Source: Parvularcula sp. (GTDB lineage: Bacteria > Pseudomonadota > Alphaproteobacteria > Caulobacterales > Parvularculaceae). From it: DNA of 64,000 bases. The position numbers were made by a program, and so were the translations under genes. Below the pieces are notes generated by a model that was not told the origin of the DNA, made no database searches, and saw only the letters and a list, made by a program, of their open reading frames with translations. This document shows positions 44,258-53,429 of the stretch, piece after piece; position 1 is the first letter of the stretch, and the number at the start of each line of letters is the position of its first letter. The stretch is taken from assembly GCA_002704915.1 (NCBI GenBank), contig PAIP01000068.1, forward strand, positions 62,001 to 126,000, in the 5' to 3' direction.

Positions 44258-44917
44258 TCAAGTCCGGGATAAGGCAAAATAAATGAAGCCGGAATAGGTC
44301 CCCGAAACAGCCGCAATGATGGCGAGCCCTAACAATACCCGCAGACGAATAATACGAATGCTTGCAGTTCTCGCGACATCGCTGACCGCCAGGGCAATCT
44401 CTTCAGACAACGCCTCTTTTGTATAGGATGACAAAGCGATGGCTTGACGCGCGCCGGGTTCCGACGTCGCTTCGAGAGCTTTTTCGTAAGCCCGGTCGAA
44501 GACGATGCGCGCAATGAACTCTTTAAGGGCTGTCGCCGGCTTCCAGTGGTGCCCGCGCACATAAAGGTAACCTCGCCAGATATGCGGCGCCATAAGCATG
44601 ATATCGCGAATGGCAAATCCGGCTGTGATGACAATAACGATAAGTTGAAAACCGCGCTCCGTCAGATCATTCGCTTCATGCAAGGCGAACAAAGCGCTGA
44701 TAATGGCGACCTTCCAAAGCAACGAAACGGCGACGCTGAGGACTTTCTGGCGTACGACGCTTGTCGTCTCGCGGCTCAATTCTTCAATCGCCGCCGTTTT
44801 CGCGATTTCTACCGACTGCGAAACACGGCTTTTTACGGCCTTGTCCACCGCCGAGCGGCCGATCACAGCGCTGCCAGCCACCGCTGTTGCTGCAAAAAGA
44901 AGCGCCCTCAGCCACAT
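44258..44917 (-). CDS. Membrane protein of unknown function
   Basis: 219 residues. Hydrophobic segments at about residues 4-20, 65-83, 89-107 and 195-213, separated by helical, charged stretches (A-V-K-S-R-V-S-Q-S-V-E-I-A-K-T-A-A-I-E-E). No known domain recognised. A GGAAC box lies upstream at 45005-45001 on the minus strand, but the element at the expected -10 position does not fit, so control by the stress response is only possible. It resembles no neighbour; its place in the stress island suggests an envelope role. Confidence 0.7.
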   Translation of the reverse strand: MWLRALLFAATAVAGSAVIGRSAVDKAVKSRVSQSVEIAKTAAIEELSRETTSVVRQKVLSVAVSLLWKVAIISALFALHEANDLTERGFQLIVIVITAGFAIRDIMLMAPHIWRGYLYVRGHHWKPATALKEFIARIVFDRAYEKALEATSEPGARQAIALSSYTKEALSEEIALAVSDVARTASIRIIRLRVLLGLAIIAAVSGTYSGFIYFALSRT

Positions 44918-45009
44918 ATCCTATCTCAACAGCTCCCTTTGTAGGATCTATGCATTTTTCCTGCTTTGAACAACATAAAGTCCGTTTTCCGCCTTTAACC
45001 GTTCCGCAG

Positions 45010-45035
45010 GGAACCAAGCCCCTTACGCCTCTGTT
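45010..45035 (+). promoter_or_regulatory. GSR-type promoter of first DUF1328 gene
   Basis: GGAAC (45010-45014), 17 bp, TGTT (45032-45035). Thirty-two base pairs separate it from the DUF1328 start codon. It matches the eight other sites in the island. Confidence 0.8.
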
Positions 45036-45067
45036 TATTACCATGTCCACTTTCCGAGGAGGTAAAT

Positions 45068-45241
45068 ATGCTTGGTTGGGCCCTGACATTTCTTGTGATC
45101 GCACTGATCGCCGCCCTGTTTGGCTTTGGCGGGATTGCTGCGGCGTCTGCCGGAATCGCAAAAATACTGTTCTTTGTTTTTCTGGTCTTGTTTATTGCAA
45201 CGATGGTATTCCGCGCGGTGAGAGGCAAAAGCCCTGCCTAA
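45068..45241 (+). CDS. DUF1328 membrane miniprotein (copy 1)
   Basis: 57 residues: a first helix [16 protein letters not shown], a Gly/Ala-rich turn ([14 protein letters not shown]), a second helix and the basic end R-A-V-R-G-K-S-P-A. This is the complete DUF1328/YtjA signature. GAGGAGG ribosome site. Role unknown; family members are stress-inducible inner-membrane proteins. A nearly identical copy lies at 48742-48915. A strong terminator follows. Confidence 0.92.
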
Positions 45242-45260
45242 GTCGGGATTCCATAATTTC

Positions 45261-45289
45261 AAAAAAGCCGCCGCCAAGGCGGCTTTTTT
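45261..45289. terminator. Bidirectional intrinsic terminator
   Basis: A 12-bp stem (AAAAAAGCCGCC at 45261-45272 with GGCGGCTTTTTT at 45278-45289), five-base loop, A run on one side and T run on the other. It ends the DUF1328 transcript 20 bp after its stop codon. Confidence 0.9.
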
Positions 45290-45310
45290 CGTTTTTTGCC
45301 TTTTTTCGCG

Positions 45311-45335
45311 GGAACCTGCCCGAAAAGAGTGTGTT
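45311..45335 (+). promoter_or_regulatory. GSR-type promoter without an adjacent coding start
   Basis: GGAAC (45311-45315), 16 bp, TGTT (45332-45335). The next coding start on this strand is 200 bp away (45543). The interval holds a structured stretch that ends in a long hairpin and T-rich tract, so this site more likely drives a small RNA. Confidence 0.7.
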
Positions 45336-45341
45336 TCAGGT

Positions 45342-45460
45342 TTGTCGAGCAGGTCAGGGCCGCCCCATTCCTGGCTTGCCGTCGCAGACTCCCCGTCGCA
45401 GGTCCGCGCTGTCTGGCTCTTCGCCCCGAGATAGACAGCGCGGGCCGCGTATTTTCTTTA
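45342..45460 (+). ncRNA. Candidate GSR-controlled small RNA, C-rich, hairpin-terminated
   Basis: This ~119-nt stretch begins 6-7 bases after a GSR-type promoter. A 5' stem-loop (GTCAGG 45353-45358 with CCTGGC 45370-45375) exposes CGCCCC in its loop. A single-stranded part follows, containing CCCC at 45391-45394 and a repeated GTCGCAG. A perfect 11-bp stem comes last (45404-45414 with 45433-45443), its loop holding a third CCCC at 45424-45427; GGCCGCG and TATTTTCTTT then close it. Three exposed C runs able to meet G-rich ribosome sites resemble the layout of the Caulobacter stress RNA GsrN, but no sequence comparison was possible. No reading frame with a ribosome site fits. It could also be a long leader of the ATP-grasp gene. 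Confidence 0.55.
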
Positions 45461-45542
45461 TAGTATCCACACTCCGCGGTCTGAACGCGTTAAACCGGTC
45501 TGACGCCTGCGTTTTGGGCCGGGATCATGATATGGAAGCTTT

Positions 45543-46871
45543 ATGGCGGTGAACGGCGACAAACAGACATATGGACGGGTTATCGTCACTTACGGACGCA
45601 GCCTGATGTCGCTCGTCGCGGCCCAGAGCCTGGCCCGGCGCGGTCTGCACGTCATAGGCTGCGACAGCGTAGATATGACGGCTTTACGCTTCTCAAAATT
45701 CTGCTCGGCGTATTTTGTCCATCCCGATCCGAAGGATGATGAAAACGCCTATATTGACGCCCTTGTTCAAGAGATCGAACGCGCTCGCCCTGAGGATGAC
45801 AATCCCTATGTTCTGATGCCGCTTTTCGATAATGCGCGCCTGCTCGCGCGGCGCAAAGCAGATCTGCCGGATTATATAAAATTGGCGGCGCCGGATATTC
45901 AGTCGATTAACTGCGTCTATCCCAAAGACCGGCTCGTGCGATCCCTAACAGAACTGCAAGAATTCGCGCCTGAAAGCCGCATCATCGAAGGACAATCGGA
46001 TATTCAAGCCGCAAGCGCGGACCTGGTATTTCCCCTTGTGCTCAAACCGGCTGTTGGGGTGGGTGGGCGCGGCGTTGAATTCGTGGATGACAAGGAACAA
46101 CTCCAACAAGCCTATCAGAAAGTTTCTGAAGAGCATGAAGGACCATTCATATTGCAGGAAACCGCTGAAGGCGAAGATTTCTGCATGACCGCCATCGCCG
46201 ATCATGGCGAGGTGCGCGCGGCGATGGCGTACAAAAACCTGGACACCTTTCCCAAGAAGTCCGGCGCCGGCACCGTGCGCGAAACTGTCGATCATAATTC
46301 TTTTATGGAAGCCACTGAGGCGATATTAAAGCACTCCAACTGGACCGGTGTGGCCGAAATAGACTTCCGCTGGACTGGCGAGGAATCCGACCCGCCGCAA
46401 CTCATCGAAGTGAATGCGCGGTTCTGGGCCGGGCTTTATCACTCCATGGCGTCAGGTATCGACTATCCGTGGCTACTCTACCAATTGACCGCCTATGAGG
46501 CCATCAGCGAATCCACCACACCTGTCATAGGCAAGATCACGCGCACGCCGGTTTTATCCACCATGTCCATGATCTCATCTATCTTGTCGCGCTCCTTTCG
46601 CTTTCCCGTCACGCGCCGGATGATTGCAAGCGGATGGCGTCTGATTGGAGAGGGGCAGCGGCGGGAAGGCCTGCATCGCATTTGGCGCGGCCTCAAAGGC
46701 GCCTTCACTTTTGACAAGGCGGCATTCACGGCTCTGGAAAAGATGGAGCAATCCAAAAATGCGCCGACGGAGTTTGATTACGCCAGCGACCCTTATGCAG
46801 GCCTCGGGATTCTGTTTATTCTTAGTTCATTACGACGCCATGGCCGGCTGCCGGATGAGCTGAAATATTGA
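45543..46871 (+). CDS. ATP-grasp enzyme of unknown substrate
   Basis: 442 residues. An N-terminal Rossmann-like domain (V-I-V-T-Y-G-R-S-L-M-S-L-V-A-A-Q-S-L-A-R-R-G) precedes a carbamoyl-phosphate-synthase-like ATP-grasp fold. ATP-binding Lys is in P-L-V-L-K-P-A-V-G-V-G-G-R-G at about residue 165, the F-I-L-Q-E-T-A-E-G-E-D lid follows, and the metal-binding end is L-I-E-V-N-A-R-F-W-A-G. Such enzymes join a carboxylate to an amine or peptide. The weak ribosome site (GGAAG) is close to ATG 45543. A GSR promoter lies 200 bp upstream, with the candidate small RNA between; whether the gene is transcribed from it is unclear. Confidence 0.85.
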   Translation: MAVNGDKQTYGRVIVTYGRSLMSLVAAQSLARRGLHVIGCDSVDMTALRFSKFCSAYFVHPDPKDDENAYIDALVQEIERARPEDDNPYVLMPLFDNARLLARRKADLPDYIKLAAPDIQSINCVYPKDRLVRSLTELQEFAPESRIIEGQSDIQAASADLVFPLVLKPAVGVGGRGVEFVDDKEQLQQAYQKVSEEHEGPFILQETAEGEDFCMTAIADHGEVRAAMAYKNLDTFPKKSGAGTVRETVDHNSFMEATEAILKHSNWTGVAEIDFRWTGEESDPPQLIEVNARFWAGLYHSMASGIDYPWLLYQLTAYEAISESTTPVIGKITRTPVLSTMSMISSILSRSFRFPVTRRMIASGWRLIGEGQRREGLHRIWRGLKGAFTFDKAAFTALEKMEQSKNAPTEFDYASDPYAGLGILFILSSLRRHGRLPDELKY

Positions 46872-47567: not shown

Positions 47568-47909
47568 TTACTTCCGCAGAACCGAACGACCCAACAGGAA
47601 ACCCACGGCGACAGCGGCGCCAAGGGACGCTACCGGGTTCTTGCGAACGTTTTTCTCAATGGATGAGGCGGCGTGACGTGTTTCTTCATCCGCTGCATCC
47701 ATAAGCTTATTCGCGCGCGTGCGCATTTTGGTTATTTGTTCATCAAGCGTTTCGGAGGCGTCCGTCGCCTTCTTGGCGCCGACCGCCAAGACGTCGTCTC
47801 TCAGCGCTTTCAAATCGTTCCGCAACGATTCGATATCTGCGCGGAGATCGGCGTCTGATGCTGAGTCAGCGAGTTTTTTCGCAGTATTCATAGTCTTTTC
47901 CCCGTACAT
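47568..47909 (-). CDS. DUF883 (ElaB/YqjD-like) membrane-anchored protein
   Basis: 113 residues. A long helical, charged part (D-L-R-A-D-I-E-S-L-R-N-D-L-K-A-L-R-D-D-V at about residues 20-39) is followed by a C-terminal hydrophobic anchor with A-S-L-G-A-A-V-A-V-G-F-L-L-G-R-S, the DUF883 signature. Family members associate with ribosomes at the membrane in stationary phase. ATG 47909 has AGGAG six bases upstream; a second ATG at 47891 with GGGGA is possible. Its GSR promoter lies 38 bp upstream. Confidence 0.9.
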   Translation of the reverse strand: MYGEKTMNTAKKLADSASDADLRADIESLRNDLKALRDDVLAVGAKKATDASETLDEQITKMRTRANKLMDAADEETRHAASSIEKNVRKNPVASLGAAVAVGFLLGRSVLRK

Positions 47910-47946: not shown

Positions 47947-47971
47947 AACACGCTGGCGCGGCTCCGGTTCC
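47947..47971 (-). promoter_or_regulatory. GSR-type promoter of the DUF883 operon
   Basis: On the minus strand GGAAC (47971-47967), 16 bp, TGTT (47950-47947), preceding the DUF883 start by 38 bp. The GGAAC box is part of a small palindrome with a second GGAAC on the plus strand, but that one has no matching -10. Confidence 0.75.
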
Positions 47972-48672: not shown

Positions 48673-48698
48673 GGAACCGGTCTTTCAGCCTTGGTGTT
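48673..48698 (+). promoter_or_regulatory. GSR-type promoter of second DUF1328 gene
   Basis: GGAAC (48673-48677), 17 bp, TGTT (48695-48698), 43 bp before the DUF1328 start codon. Boxes and spacing equal those of copy 1 although the sequence between differs, which supports the functional constraint. Confidence 0.8.
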
Positions 48699-48741: not shown

Positions 48742-48915
48742 ATGCTCGGATGGGCTCTTACATTTTTGGTTATTGCACTGATTGCTGCATTCCTCGGTTT
48801 CAGTGGCGTCGCTGCAGCATCCGCTGGCGTCGCTCAGATTCTCTTCTTCGTTTTCCTGGTGCTTTTCGTCATCGCTATGGTGGCGCGGGCGGTTAGAGGA
48901 CGATCACCTATGTAG
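48742..48915 (+). CDS. DUF1328 membrane miniprotein (copy 2)
   Basis: 57 residues, nearly the same as the 45068-45241 product ([33 protein letters not shown]). CGGAGG ribosome site seven bases upstream of ATG 48742. The two copies carry similar GSR promoters and terminators, so each is an independent unit. Duplication of whole promoter-gene units suggests a dosage effect. Confidence 0.92.
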
Positions 48916-48945: not shown

Positions 48946-48977
48946 AAAAAACGCCCGGAAGGTCCGGGCGTTTTTTT
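48946..48977. terminator. Bidirectional terminator between DUF1328 and sensor kinase
   Basis: CGCCCGG (48952-48958) pairs with CCGGGCG (48964-48970); A residues precede and seven T residues follow. It ends both the DUF1328 transcript (plus) and the kinase transcript (minus), whose stop codon lies within the T tract. Confidence 0.88.
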
Positions 48978-50673
48978 ATTCTTCCGTTTCTTTCGGCATC
49001 TCGATTGTAATCATGATCTCGCCAGGGGCGGCATTTCGACTGATTTCACCAGCTAAAAACCCGCTTACGAGTCTATTCACTATGGTTTGACCAAACCCGG
49101 CGCTTTCTTGTTCATTATCACTGGGAGCAATATCAGAACTTTCTTCGCGCCATCTGAATATAAATGCGTCTTCGCCGTCCTCCCAATCTATTTCCAGCCT
49201 TCCGCCGGAATCTTTTAATGCACCATGTTTCACAGCGTTTGAAGCAAGTTCATGGACAATGAGCGCCCAAGCTGTCGCCGCGCCAGCGTCAAAAAGGTGG
49301 TCACTCCCATTCACGAATATTCGCTGTGGCGTTGTGCGCCAGGGACGCAACGTCGTTTCAAGTATGTCCTTCAAATTGGCTTTACGGTGCTTGAGATCCG
49401 CGGTTCCCACATTATGCGCTTCATGAAGTGCGAAGAGGCGACGCCGCGTCGCCTCGGCAAAATCGTCGACTGTCGTCGCATAGCGCGCACTCAAACCAAT
49501 CAAGGCATTCGTTACAGAAAAAAGGTTCTTGATCCGATGATTCAATTCCTGAACGAGCAAATCGTTGCTTTCCTCGGCGGCCTTGCGCTTCGATATGTCG
49601 ACCCCACACAAACATAGATGCAGGGGCTCGCCAAAATCAGAGTCGATAGGCGTCACCGTGAGCAACGCCCAGCCCTTTTCTCCATCATGGTTCCAGAACG
49701 GCGCCTCGCCGCTGACCTGGCCTTCCGTTGCAGCGCGCTTCACAAGATCGCGTACGGCGGATCGTGTCTCTTCAGACCGCCCCCACATTCTGAGCTCCCA
49801 AAAATTCGCGTTCGACCATTTCTCGCGGGCCAAGCCGGTCTGCGCTTCACCATATTCATTCAATTCAAGGATACGGCCATCGGGCGTTGTTATGGAAAAC
49901 AGAGCGCCAATTCCGTCGATGAGCTTACTGACGAGACTTTCTCGGTCTTTTACGTCCGTGATATCGTAGTTGACCCCTGCGAGGCTAAGCGCGCCTGAAC
50001 GCGGATCGACAATCACCCTGCCTCTCGCGGCAACCCAACGGTATTTGTCATCCGGACCGCGTATGCGAAATTCAGATCGAAACTTTCCGCTTCCCTCGCG
50101 CGCGGCGTCCACGCTCTCTCGAACATGATCCACATCATGCTCATGAATACGCGCAAAGGCATCCTCACCATGCAGGACTGATGTCGCCGGCAAGGACAAA
50201 AGTTCCCGCAACTTTGGGTTGGCGTAAAGCGCGTCAGTTTTGAAATCCAGGCGGAAGACGCCGAGGTCGGCGGCCTCCGCAGAGATTTCCGCTTGCCAGC
50301 TATATTCGAAAGCGCGCTCCTCAAGCTTGCGGATATAAAAAATGGAACCCGCTGTCACGAGGATCAGGACAAGCGCCGCCGTCAGCCATTGCAGACCGTT
50401 ATTGGTGAGTTCTCCCGGCTGCATCCACACTATAACGGCCGCAGCCAGAGCCACGCCAGCCAGCCAGACAATTGTGTTTTTGGACGGCGCAAGATAACCG
50501 GACGCCGTAGCGCCAATTAAAGACACCAGCGTCAGCAGTGGAAATTCCGAATTCGGGATGACGACGGCCAACGCCGTCAACACAATGCCGGCGGCTAGCC
50601 AGATTCGGCCCGACCGACGCGACTGCATGATGCTTCGGAAAATACGCGTAGTCGGGTTAGCCAAAAAATTCAT
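48976..50673 (-). CDS. HWE/HisKA_2-type sensor histidine kinase with PAS domains
   Basis: 565 residues. Several membrane helices at about residues 23-115, then two PAS-like domains (around residues 130-240 and 250-365) and a kinase core with the phospho-accepting His in Q-E-L-N-H-R-I-K-N-L (~residue 378). The N-box is H-E-L-A-S-N-A-V-K-H-G-A. Proteins of this class feed PhyR in alphaproteobacterial general stress responses. The gene is the third of the PhyR operon (12 bp after the ribbon-helix-helix gene), so it is the likely cognate kinase, sensing through the membrane part or the PAS domains. Confidence 0.9.
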   Translation of the reverse strand: MNFLANPTTRIFRSIMQSRRSGRIWLAAGIVLTALAVVIPNSEFPLLTLVSLIGATASGYLAPSKNTIVWLAGVALAAAVIVWMQPGELTNNGLQWLTAALVLILVTAGSIFYIRKLEERAFEYSWQAEISAEAADLGVFRLDFKTDALYANPKLRELLSLPATSVLHGEDAFARIHEHDVDHVRESVDAAREGSGKFRSEFRIRGPDDKYRWVAARGRVIVDPRSGALSLAGVNYDITDVKDRESLVSKLIDGIGALFSITTPDGRILELNEYGEAQTGLAREKWSNANFWELRMWGRSEETRSAVRDLVKRAATEGQVSGEAPFWNHDGEKGWALLTVTPIDSDFGEPLHLCLCGVDISKRKAAEESNDLLVQELNHRIKNLFSVTNALIGLSARYATTVDDFAEATRRRLFALHEAHNVGTADLKHRKANLKDILETTLRPWRTTPQRIFVNGSDHLFDAGAATAWALIVHELASNAVKHGALKDSGGRLEIDWEDGEDAFIFRWREESSDIAPSDNEQESAGFGQTIVNRLVSGFLAGEISRNAAPGEIMITIEMPKETEE

Positions 50674-50684
50674 TGGGTGCGGGA

Positions 50685-50903
50685 TCAGGCCCGGTCGAGC
50701 TGATCTAGGAGCTTGGCCGCTGCATCCGGATCCGACTTCGTCAGCTCCAAACCTAGATAGATGAGGGAGCGAATCGCCGCCGAACGGCTGGCGGCGCGAT
50801 TTTCAAAACGCCAGTCGTCAATCATCGCCAATTCAGAATCAGCGACCATGATCTGAAGTTTCTCAACTCGCTTTTCCGGCGCAGAAGACTTTTCATTGCT
50901 CAT
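50685..50903 (-). CDS. Ribbon-helix-helix-like small protein in the PhyR operon
   Basis: 72 residues. E-K-L-Q-I-M-V-A-D-S-E-L-A-M-I-D-D-W-R at about residues 14-32, followed by S-R-S-A-A-I-R-S-L-I-Y-L-G-L, fits the RHH (Arc/CopG) fold: one strand, two helices. It overlaps the PhyR stop as ATGA. The position is where many genomes have NepR, but no NepR features (a short helical pair ending L-L-x-x-L-D) are seen except at the very end. It may be a DNA-binding protein of the operon; function unknown. Confidence 0.7.
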   Translation of the reverse strand: MSNEKSSAPEKRVEKLQIMVADSELAMIDDWRFENRAASRSAAIRSLIYLGLELTKSDPDAAAKLLDQLDRA

Positions 50904-51688
50904 AAGTCACCATTTGCGCTGTCAGCATCGATTGCGAAGAAACGCTCCGTATCGAGGCAATGGGCAACCGCGGCTTGCACGGCTTCAGGCCTGTACGGCT
51001 TAACGATGACAAAGTCCGGCTCAACATCCTCTCCTTTTAAAACGTCATCCGGATAGCCGGTGATGAAAATGACGGGACATTGATGGCTGTCCTGAAACGC
51101 GATAACAGCGTCGACCCCGGTCTTTTGCCCATCAAGATTGTAATCCGCAAGCACGATATCCGGAGCGCTTTTGAGAGCTTCCCGCGCACCCTGATCAGCG
51201 GTTCGCGCAAGCCCTACTACGGTCACGCCCATATTCTCCAACACATCTTTCAGATCAGCCGCAATAAGCGGCTCGTCTTCCACGATCAGCGCTTTTCGCT
51301 CCTCGCGCTGGCGGGCAATAACCGCACGACCTTCCTTAAGCAACTCAGCGAAGGGCTTCGACAGCGGATCCAGCACATATTCGATGTCGCGTTGCGAAAG
51401 ACCGCAAATGTCGTTCAAAAGCAGCACCAGCCGCGCCTCGGAAGGGGGCGGCCCAAGGCTTCTGACATACTCGGCGCTGGAAAAAGGCCTGGGCCTGCTA
51501 TTCGCGTCGAGAATTTCCCGCCACTTCAAAATAAATTCACGGAACAAGTCAGCCTTGGCGGCGGCCGGCGGCTTTCCTGCGCGAATATTTTCTGCTGTTA
51601 TGGCGCCGGCAAGTTCGTCGCCAGCCAAACGGTCAGCCGTTACGGCGCGCGCAAATTGCCGAAGAGACGCACTAACTGGTAAAAACAC
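50900..51688 (-). CDS. phyR: PhyR-type anti-anti-sigma response regulator
   Basis: 262 residues. The N-terminal ~130 residues have ECF-sigma-like architecture (sigma2- and sigma4-like, the latter around V-L-L-L-N-D-I-C-G-L-S-Q-R-D-I-E-Y-V-L), and the C-terminal receiver domain has E-D-E-P-L, D-Y-N-L-D-G (phospho-Asp in L-A-D-Y-N) and the K-P-Y-R switch lysine. In the known mechanism the phosphorylated protein captures the anti-sigma factor NepR and frees EcfG. The start is GTG 51688 with AGGACGG upstream. A GSR promoter lies 31 bp upstream, so it is probably auto-activated. Confidence 0.95.
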   Translation of the reverse strand: MFLPVSASLRQFARAVTADRLAGDELAGAITAENIRAGKPPAAAKADLFREFILKWREILDANSRPRPFSSAEYVRSLGPPPSEARLVLLLNDICGLSQRDIEYVLDPLSKPFAELLKEGRAVIARQREERKALIVEDEPLIAADLKDVLENMGVTVVGLARTADQGAREALKSAPDIVLADYNLDGQKTGVDAVIAFQDSHQCPVIFITGYPDDVLKGEDVEPDFVIVKPYRPEAVQAAVAHCLDTERFFAIDADSANGDL

Positions 51689-51718: not shown

Positions 51719-51743
51719 AACACTTTCACCGCCCCGGGGTTCC
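51719..51743 (-). promoter_or_regulatory. GSR-type promoter of the PhyR operon
   Basis: On the minus strand GGAAC (51743-51739), 16 bp, TGTT (51722-51719), 31 bp before the GTG start. Positive feedback of the stress response on its own regulator is expected. Confidence 0.8.
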
Positions 51744-52654: not shown

Positions 52655-52894
52655 TTATGCCGCTTGACGGCATCTGAGCCCGCGAAGTGCTTTTTTCAGC
52701 TCTTTATCCCGATAAAGCACCCCTTTTAATGCCCTTAAATCGGCATTGATCATGGCCGTACGCTGGACAAGCGCAAGTGCGCCCGCGTCAGTTTCAAGAC
52801 GCTGGCGCACTGCGTTGTGCCTTGGCTCAGCCAATTGATGATCGGCAAGAGCGTCAATATCCATCGGGGTTACAAGCGTAATTACTTCCGTCAT
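52655..52894 (-). CDS. Small anti-sigma-factor-like protein next to ECF sigma (mini-domain 2)
   Basis: 79 residues, beginning T-P-M-D-I-D-A-L-A-D-H-Q-L-A and ending L-R-G-L-R-C-R. It resembles the 46882 and 54673 proteins in layout (D-I-x-A-x-x-D, then A-L, then L-R-A-L). It is 7 bp after the ECF sigma gene and probably co-transcribed. The place and form suggest that it is the sigma factor's cytosolic partner, though no NepR-type or zinc-binding motif is visible. Interpretation is an inference. Confidence 0.6.
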   Translation of the reverse strand: MTEVITLVTPMDIDALADHQLAEPRHNAVRQRLETDAGALALVQRTAMINADLRALKGVLYRDKELKKALRGLRCRQAA

Positions 52895-52901
52895 GCACCC
52901 A

Positions 52902-53429
52902 TTACACGACAGCAGCTAAAGGAGTTCCCTCCGTCTCGATATTTTCTCCCTCAACCATGGTCATGAGCCTGCTGCGCGCCCGTGACAGGCGGGAGCGGAC
53001 TGTGCCAACCGGCACATCAAGCACCGTCGCCGCTTCCTCGTATTTCATCCCTTCGATGACGACCAGGGAGAGAATAACCTTGTCATTAAGGGGAAGGCGT
53101 TCAAAAGCTTCAACGACATCATTGTAGTGCATGATCTGCTCCTGTGTCTGGGCGCTCGCGAGACGCGATTGGGGCGCATCGTCCATTTCAACTGTAATGC
53201 CGCGGGTTTTTTCGCTACGGATTTGGTTCAGAAAAACCCGGCGGCAGATTGTGAAGAGCCAAGACCGAAGATTGGCGCCATCAAACAAGTGAGATTTGCG
53301 CAGAGCACGTTCAACGCTGTCTTGAACGAGATCGCTGGCGCGGTCCTGGTTACGGGTTAGCTGGAGCGCGAAACGATGAAGCGCGGGCAAGCACTCATTG
53401 AGTTCTGCTGTTGAAATCTGCGATTGCAT
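52902..53429 (-). CDS. ECF sigma factor (EcfG-like)
   Basis: 175 residues. Region 2 shows L-Q-L-T-R-N-Q-D-R-A-S-D-L-V-Q-D-S-V-E-R-A-L and the L-R-S-W-L-F-T-I-C-R-R-V-F stretch; region 4 shows L-P-L-N-D-K-V-I-L-S-L-V-V-I-E-G-M-K-Y-E-E-A-A and G-T-V-R-S-R-L-S-R-A-R. Its setting near PhyR makes it the best candidate for the sigma factor that reads the nine GGAAC promoters, but the class was not tested by comparison. Its own upstream region has no GGAAC box, so it may be made under other control. Confidence 0.85.
   Translation of the reverse strand: MQSQISTAELNECLPALHRFALQLTRNQDRASDLVQDSVERALRKSHLFDGANLRSWLFTICRRVFLNQIRSEKTRGITVEMDDAPQSRLASAQTQEQIMHYNDVVEAFERLPLNDKVILSLVVIEGMKYEEAATVLDVPVGTVRSRLSRARSRLMTMVEGENIETEGTPLAAVV

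Follow-up and report, generated by a model that had tools for sequence, protein, structure and literature searches.

A probable stress-sigma-dependent small RNA with a repeated C-rich loop motif near phyR in Parvularculaceae

The window, as we call the whole 64-kb stretch of DNA analysed here, contains a stress-response (GSR) locus with genes for a histidine kinase, a PhyR-like response regulator and an ECF sigma factor. To one side of these genes, between a DUF1328 gene and an ATP-grasp gene, lies a short stretch that carries a promoter, two predicted hairpins and a terminator. The features are given below by coordinates and strand; G005, G022 and G025 denote three related genomes.

44258–44917, minus: 219-aa protein, the syntenic anchor beside the sRNA in four of four genomes (64–76% identity by tblastn and alignment; no Pfam match)
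45068–45241, plus: DUF1328 protein, 57 aa (Pfam PF07043), with a GGAAC-type site at 45010
45261–45289, plus: strong intrinsic terminator of the DUF1328 gene (terminator scan; 12-bp stem and T run)
45311–45335, plus: EcfG-type promoter of the sRNA, GGAAC-N16-TGTT (from sequence; elements and 16-nt spacer the same in all four copies)
45342–45459, plus: predicted sRNA, ~115 nt (ends placed by the −10 element and the terminator; fold z −4.23)
45344–45383, plus: 5′ stem-loop of the MFE fold, loop at 45360–45368 with CGCCCC (45361–45366)
45384–45400, plus: linker with the second C run (from sequence; CCCC at 45391–45394)
45401–45446, plus: terminator stem-loop of the predicted fold, 15-bp stem, CGCCCC (45422–45427) in the loop
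45450–45459, plus: U-rich tail of the terminator, TATTTTCTTT (from sequence; the terminator scan reports a terminator-like site here)
45543–46871, plus: ATP-grasp protein (Pfam, synteny), downstream of the sRNA in the window and G005, absent from this position in G022 and G025
47947–47971, minus: exact GGAAC-N16-TGTT site, preceding a small GSR-locus gene (47568–47909, start at 47909)
48976–50673, minus: HWE-family PAS histidine kinase (Pfam PF07536), part of the GSR locus
50685–50903, minus: 72-aa ORF beside PhyR, ribbon-helix-helix-like by eye, conserved in G022 and G025
50900–51688, minus: PhyR-like response regulator (receiver domain; the NCBIfam PhyR model is the best match, below its cut-off at 161 vs 240 bits)
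51719–51743, minus: exact GGAAC-N16-TGTT site preceding phyR (pattern search)
52655–52894, minus: 79-aa ORF beside the ECF gene, conserved in G022 and G025
52902–53429, minus: GSR-locus ECF sigma factor (sigma-70 regions 2 and 4 by Pfam), with 86–87% identical counterparts at the corresponding place in G022 and G025

By its position, the ECF sigma factor probably has the role of EcfG. No NepR was recognised among the small ORFs; the 72-aa and 79-aa ORFs gave no Pfam or NCBIfam match at E 0.001. A second PhyR homolog (38% identity) is encoded on another contig of the window's genome (G000:C1:36333–37070, L048), and a second DUF1328 gene lies near the GSR locus at 48742–48915, with a GGAAC-type site before it at 48673.

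Exact GGAAC-N16-TGTT sites number three in the window against 0.35 expected, a count reached by 1 of 100 shuffles. A looser GSR-like motif occurs 12 times against 5.7 expected, about twofold, with 2 of 100 shuffles reaching 12; taken alone, this excess is weak. Among the other loci fetched, GGAAC-type sites paired with TGTT or CGTT are found directly 5′ of homologs of Pmp3, DUF1328, PhyR and ATP-grasp genes. In a further genome, G011 (L056:549, minus strand), GGAAC-N16-TGTT precedes a 57-aa ORF that looks CsbD-like by eye and is adjoined by similar DUF1328 and ATP-grasp genes. The corresponding sites of Caulobacter are given as GGAAC and CGTT at a spacing of 15–17 (PMC5869019, in part) and those of Rhizobium etli as GGAAC-N16-CGTT (PMC3892343, in part). 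The promoter of the candidate sRNA is near this EcfG consensus, with a −10 element that reads TGTT instead of the CGTT used for Caulobacter (PMC5869019, in part).

A preliminary description of this DNA had proposed that the stretch encodes a GSR-controlled sRNA, and we examined its parts on the sequence. GGAAC at 45311–45315 and TGTT at 45332–45335 are present as described, separated by a 16-nt spacer, and the claim that no gene follows for 200 bp agrees with an ATP-grasp ORF that starts at 45543, 208 bp past the −10 element. On the other side, the DUF1328 terminator separates the upstream unit from the sRNA promoter, which starts ~20 bases later. The 5′ stem-loop had been placed at 45353–45375 with CGCCCC in its loop; the motif is indeed in the apical loop, which has 9 nt (CCGCCCCAU), but the stem is longer than claimed, extending over about 45344–45383. 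The second CCCC is at 45391 as described, but its exposure is less certain than that of the two loops because the pairing of the linker run at 45391–45394 differs between predicted folds. The hairpin reported at 45404–45443 also exists, but its stem is not of 11 bp: 45401–45415 pairs with 45432–45446 over 15 bp, two G–U pairs included, and an inner 3-bp stem above it exposes an 8-nt loop, UUCGCCCC. The C run assigned to this second loop and the T-rich end were both confirmed on the sequence, at 45422–45427 and 45450–45459. None of 200 dinucleotide-preserving shuffles folded as well as the window sequence (z −4.56 for 45342–45470 and z −4.23 for 45342–45463).

The sRNA is kept at the same place in three relatives, namely Marinicaulis flavus SY-3-19 (now Hyphococcus luteus; Parvularculaceae; contig NZ_PJCH01000001.1) and two MAGs (contigs JAUIMC010000003.1 and JAUIEG010000018.1). 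The copies are as follows.

L050:9357–9476, plus: copy in G022, promoter site at L050:9328
L049:9272–9397, plus: copy in G025, promoter site at L049:9243
L059:835–956, minus: copy in G005, promoter site at L059:986

These copies came from searches with the PhyR and ATP-grasp proteins, which gave 16 stretches that were scanned for a promoter, a hairpin and a T run. About 20 sites passed the scan, and those of G022 and G005 were chosen for their place and for CGCCCC in the hairpins, so that the loop conservation reported below is partly selected. The G025 copy, missed by the hairpin rule, was chosen for its place. A fourth pick of the scan, L060, was dropped, bearing no resemblance to the other copies. 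Gene order was checked by tblastn after the copies had been picked. The window, G022 and G025 share the order Pmp3 – 219-aa protein – sRNA – small genes – kinase – 72-aa ORF – PhyR – phosphoesterase – 79-aa ORF – ECF, and among these three the window alone carries the ATP-grasp gene and the first DUF1328 gene here. The order in G005 is Pmp3 – 219-aa protein – DUF1328 – sRNA – ATP-grasp, of which the part from the 219-aa protein onward is common to G005 and the window. The distance from phyR is 5.4 kb for the window copy and 3.2 kb for those of G022 and G025; on the short contig of G005, phyR was not seen.

GGAAC and TGTT are separated by 16 nt in all four copies, and the spacers otherwise differ in sequence. 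Each copy folds better than 200 of 200 shuffles (z −4.23, −5.21, −3.27 and −3.41). The 5′ loop holds CGCCC in all four and CGCCCC in three, the linker CCC in all four and CCCC in three, and the terminator loop CGCCCC in all four. These loop motifs are kept while the stems differ. On the model-fitted alignment, 84% of cells were paired, against 34–46% when the partners were slid. Covariation in relatives had been put forward as a check of the fold, and compensatory changes were indeed found in the terminator stem, although the evidence is small (four sequences) and the 5′ stem poorly registered: both-sided changes affected 9 of 26 pairs, eight of them within the terminator helix (8 of 17 model pairs). 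Four of five covariation measures beat nearly all of 500 shuffles and the fifth was ordinary (106/500), on an alignment that was fitted to the structure and comprised four sequences only. For the 5′ helix (helix 1), the paired fraction of cells was only 67%, since its register shifts slightly from copy to copy. The weakest copy is that of G025, which has a poor U tail and lacks the 5′ stem in its centroid fold. Three MAFFT alignments (A2, A3 and A7), which misplaced the 5′ loop of some copies, were excluded from the models.

A covariance model built from all four copies, R1, finds those four at 85–113 bits, by construction, and found nothing credible beyond them in 62 family, 398 order and 385 class genomes. 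The family is thus small, with copies in 4 of the 62 family genomes. The R1 runs used strict filters, and at most 57, 9 and 9 candidates were scored per genome (family, order and class, respectively), so weak relatives may have been missed. Matches below 30 bits in G004, G012, G074, G069, G029, G075, G062, G005:C557 and G022:C7 were rejected, none of the nine having a GGAAC site within 100 bp upstream; the marginal match in G005:C557 has one GGAAT site upstream. Matches in G203, G692 and G666 had no promoter either. The G005:C557 site (L106:1501–1558) is a long hairpin whose loop contains TTCGCCCC, without a GGAAC promoter or U tail.

A second model, R2, was built from the G022 and G025 copies only, with the window left out, and was applied to 12 of the 62 family genomes. 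It ranked the window site first of all matches (26 bits, E 8.5e-4); the runner-up in the window's own 4.5-Mb genome had E 0.9, and the overall next match, in G008, E 0.004. R2 failed to recover the G005 copy, the most distant one. Five further R2 matches were examined and lacked such a promoter. Open frames were not used as an argument against the next R2 matches, since stop-free frames also cross the window site. Sequence similarity was of little help: blastn of 45290–45545 against 60 relatives found no relatives of the sRNA, giving weak matches in 53 genomes, several of them at the 5′ stem-loop, and 29 loci besides the site itself were dropped, a loose GGAA(C/T)-type site lying nearby in only 1 of 29. 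The DNA pattern GGAAC..GCCCC..CGCCCC, with 240 matches in 57 of 62 family genomes against 310 for a reversed control, was uninformative beyond the syntenic sites. Rfam 15 at the gathering threshold gave no match in the 64-kb window.

The proposal of a GSR-controlled sRNA overlooked by protein annotation is therefore supported by a place, promoter, fold and C-rich loops that are kept in three relatives, and further by the compensatory changes in the terminator stem, the terminator of its own and the convergent next gene in two relatives. From sequence and structure models, we consider it reasonably probable that 45342–45459 on the plus strand encodes a small regulatory RNA that depends on the stress sigma factor and pairs in trans, resembling GsrN of Caulobacter in action and having a repeated-loop anatomy of its own. 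We infer its expression, sigma-factor dependence, pairing and targets. Under stress, the HWE kinase and PhyR would release the ECF sigma factor; RNA polymerase would then start at ~45342 and stop at the hairpin that ends at 45446 and its U tail, yielding an RNA of ~115 nt. Two strong hairpins would hold CGCCCC in their loops, with the third C run between them, and the CGCCCC loops would serve as a repeated seed for pairing with G-rich sites in mRNAs, altering their translation or stability as described for GsrN. In the predicted fold, the feature that sets this sRNA apart is one motif repeated in two loops, one of them within the terminator, an arrangement that may let the sRNA bind two sites at once.

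Candidate targets were sought among katG and the genes of the locus. katG is present in all four genomes, as five genes, and the G-tract that a GsrN-like RNA would use in its leader was not found: GGGG is absent from the 150 bp (81 bp in L132) before the most upstream ATG of each gene and from the 60 bp that follow. The proven GsrN target katG thus does not seem to carry over. Among the start regions of 17 locus genes, GGGG occurs twice, inside the gene starting at 47909 and in the phyR promoter, which shows nothing as to targets. By eye, four of the five katG genes (loci L133, L131, L134 and L132) start with a lipoprotein-signal-peptide-like stretch, only L130 (G025) being plain, which suggests that KatG with such a start is an exported catalase-peroxidase.

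The same locus could be read in other ways. The ATP-grasp gene starts 84 bp past the U tail in the window and also follows the element in G005, as would be expected if the stretch were a stress-promoter-driven 5′ leader of that gene, with the hairpin pair serving as an attenuator or riboswitch-like element. In G022 and G025, however, promoter, fold and loops are kept without an ATP-grasp gene there (the nearest homologs, 40–41% identical, are on other contigs), and the gene after the sRNA is convergent, so that in these two genomes the sRNA is not an mRNA leader; moreover, the ATP-grasp gene of G005 has a separate GGAAC-type site between the terminator and the gene (L059:833). We regard the leader as very unlikely. 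Open frames cross the sRNA in single genomes, which we attribute to chance in GC-rich DNA. Stop-free frames of 271 codons cross the window site, where a 263-aa TTG ORF (44761–45552) spans the sRNA stretch partly antisense to the 219-aa gene. The longest, a 419-aa ORF in G022, crosses the sRNA and lies antisense to two conserved genes; the G025 site shows no open frame of comparable size, and a 410-aa part of the G022 ORF had no Pfam match. Between G022 and G025, gaps of 1, 2 and 3 nt inside the RNA make a conserved peptide unlikely. An ORF test of promoters was set aside as non-discriminating, given that an ORF of at least 45 codons started within about 200 nt at 11 of 11 other GGAAC sites, yet also at 4 of 4 sRNA sites. 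Nor does chance account well for the element. A promoter-like site might by accident precede an unusually stable, unused terminator hairpin, the loose promoter motif being common, GC-rich DNA folding well and two of the copies having been picked partly by loop motif, but four syntenic copies share promoter spacing and loop motifs, each has z −3.27 or lower, and the window ranked top in the R2 hold-out search; such a coincidence appears most improbable. Having the same motif in two hairpin loops is a typical trait of RNAs that sequester proteins, and with no mRNA target found in katG and 17 locus-gene starts, a stress-induced sponge RNA that captures an RNA-binding protein specific for C-rich loops, instead of pairing with mRNA, would fit. 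Against this, we know of no bacterial protein that reads CGCCCC loops. The precedent for C-rich loops at GSR loci works by base pairing (PMC5869019, in part), and we consider the sponge unlikely, if less so than a leader or chance.

Whether the probable trans-pairing sRNA shares its ancestry with GsrN is a separate question. GsrN is a stress-sigma-driven RNA of ~100 nt that base-pairs with the katG leader through six cytosines in its 5′ loop; related RNAs are mostly found near phyR, and the known GSR sRNAs combine that position with a C-rich 5′ loop (PMC5869019, in part). GsrN is further marked by endonucleolytic cleavage that leaves a stable 5′ isoform and by an effect of Hfq, and the same source counts signs of transcription between genes among the marks of GsrN-like sRNAs. 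The Rfam family RF01529 (CC3552) probably corresponds to GsrN of Caulobacter (ccna_R0081). Its model gave no match in the window at gathering (cut-off 50 bits), nor in 45250–45550 at E up to 10. Under strict filters, 0 of 62 family genomes exceeded the cut-off and 46 of 62 gave sub-threshold matches, the best at 26.7 bits, while 1 of 14 control genomes was over the cut-off and Caulobacter vibrioides was among four that gave signal. Of 18 genomes searched with a pattern, 4 yielded GsrN (4 of the 8 matches); all of these belong to group f3, from which six genomes had been searched. The four GsrN loci match CC3552 at 76–101 bits and lie 0.5–0.7 kb from PhyR, and R1 found no match at any of them. 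The anatomy differs too. GsrN has one main C7–C9 run in the internal loop of a long stem (three of four copies, in the right orientation), unlike the window sRNA with CGCCCC in the apical loops of two stems and a further C run in the linker. The terminator loops of GsrN differ among three copies, and only L119 has CCCC, in CTTCCCCTGG. The sRNA could still be a true descendant of the RNA ancestral to GsrN that has diverged beyond the reach of covariance models, given the shared promoter class, length, phyR proximity and exposed C-rich 5′ loop and the closeness of the Caulobacteraceae-like GsrN copies to PhyR at four of four loci. The silence of both models, the different microposition (3.2–5.4 kb from phyR, with other neighbours) and the different placement of the C run speak against common descent, which we hold to be possible but doubtful. 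On present evidence, the sRNA would work like GsrN, yet it falls outside the family as its defining model delimits it; the likeness drawn in the preliminary description thus stands only as an analogy.

We tentatively suggest, without holding it probable, that Parvularculaceae replaced GsrN or never had it, and that some members rely on a stress RNA of independent origin, whose two identical C-loop seeds, one in the terminator hairpin, can hold two G-rich sites simultaneously on one or two mRNAs. If the origins are separate, a C-rich-loop RNA near phyR would be a recurrent solution, with selection keeping the motif in the loops and the place of the gene, but neither sequence nor fold. The sRNA is likely a post-transcriptional arm of the stress response in a little-studied alphaproteobacterial group, listed neither by protein annotation nor by Rfam, and its presence in a named relative, M. 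flavus SY-3-19, makes it directly testable. In the open-access papers searched, we found no report of this RNA. The CcsR or 'cuckoo' sRNAs of Rhodobacter and relatives resemble it in their C-rich motifs in hairpin loops and their stress regulation, but differ in their motif, CCUCCUCCC, in the sigma factors involved and in forming tandem copies from one transcript. ReC64, an ncRNA of R. etli, likewise has an EcfG1 promoter motif, is reduced in EcfG mutants and lies downstream of phyR-tcrY, a different point of the GSR locus from that of the window sRNA (PMC3892343, in part). The closest likeness is to GsrN, as far as the excerpted source describes it (PMC5869019): both have a GSR sigma promoter, a length of ~100 nt, a terminator of their own and a place near phyR, the proximity to sigT/ecfG–phyR being found in the window, G022 and G025, and both have an exposed cytosine-rich loop near the 5′ end, here CGCCCC in the 9-nt apical loop of the predicted fold, which by analogy would be expected to pair with G-rich mRNA sites.
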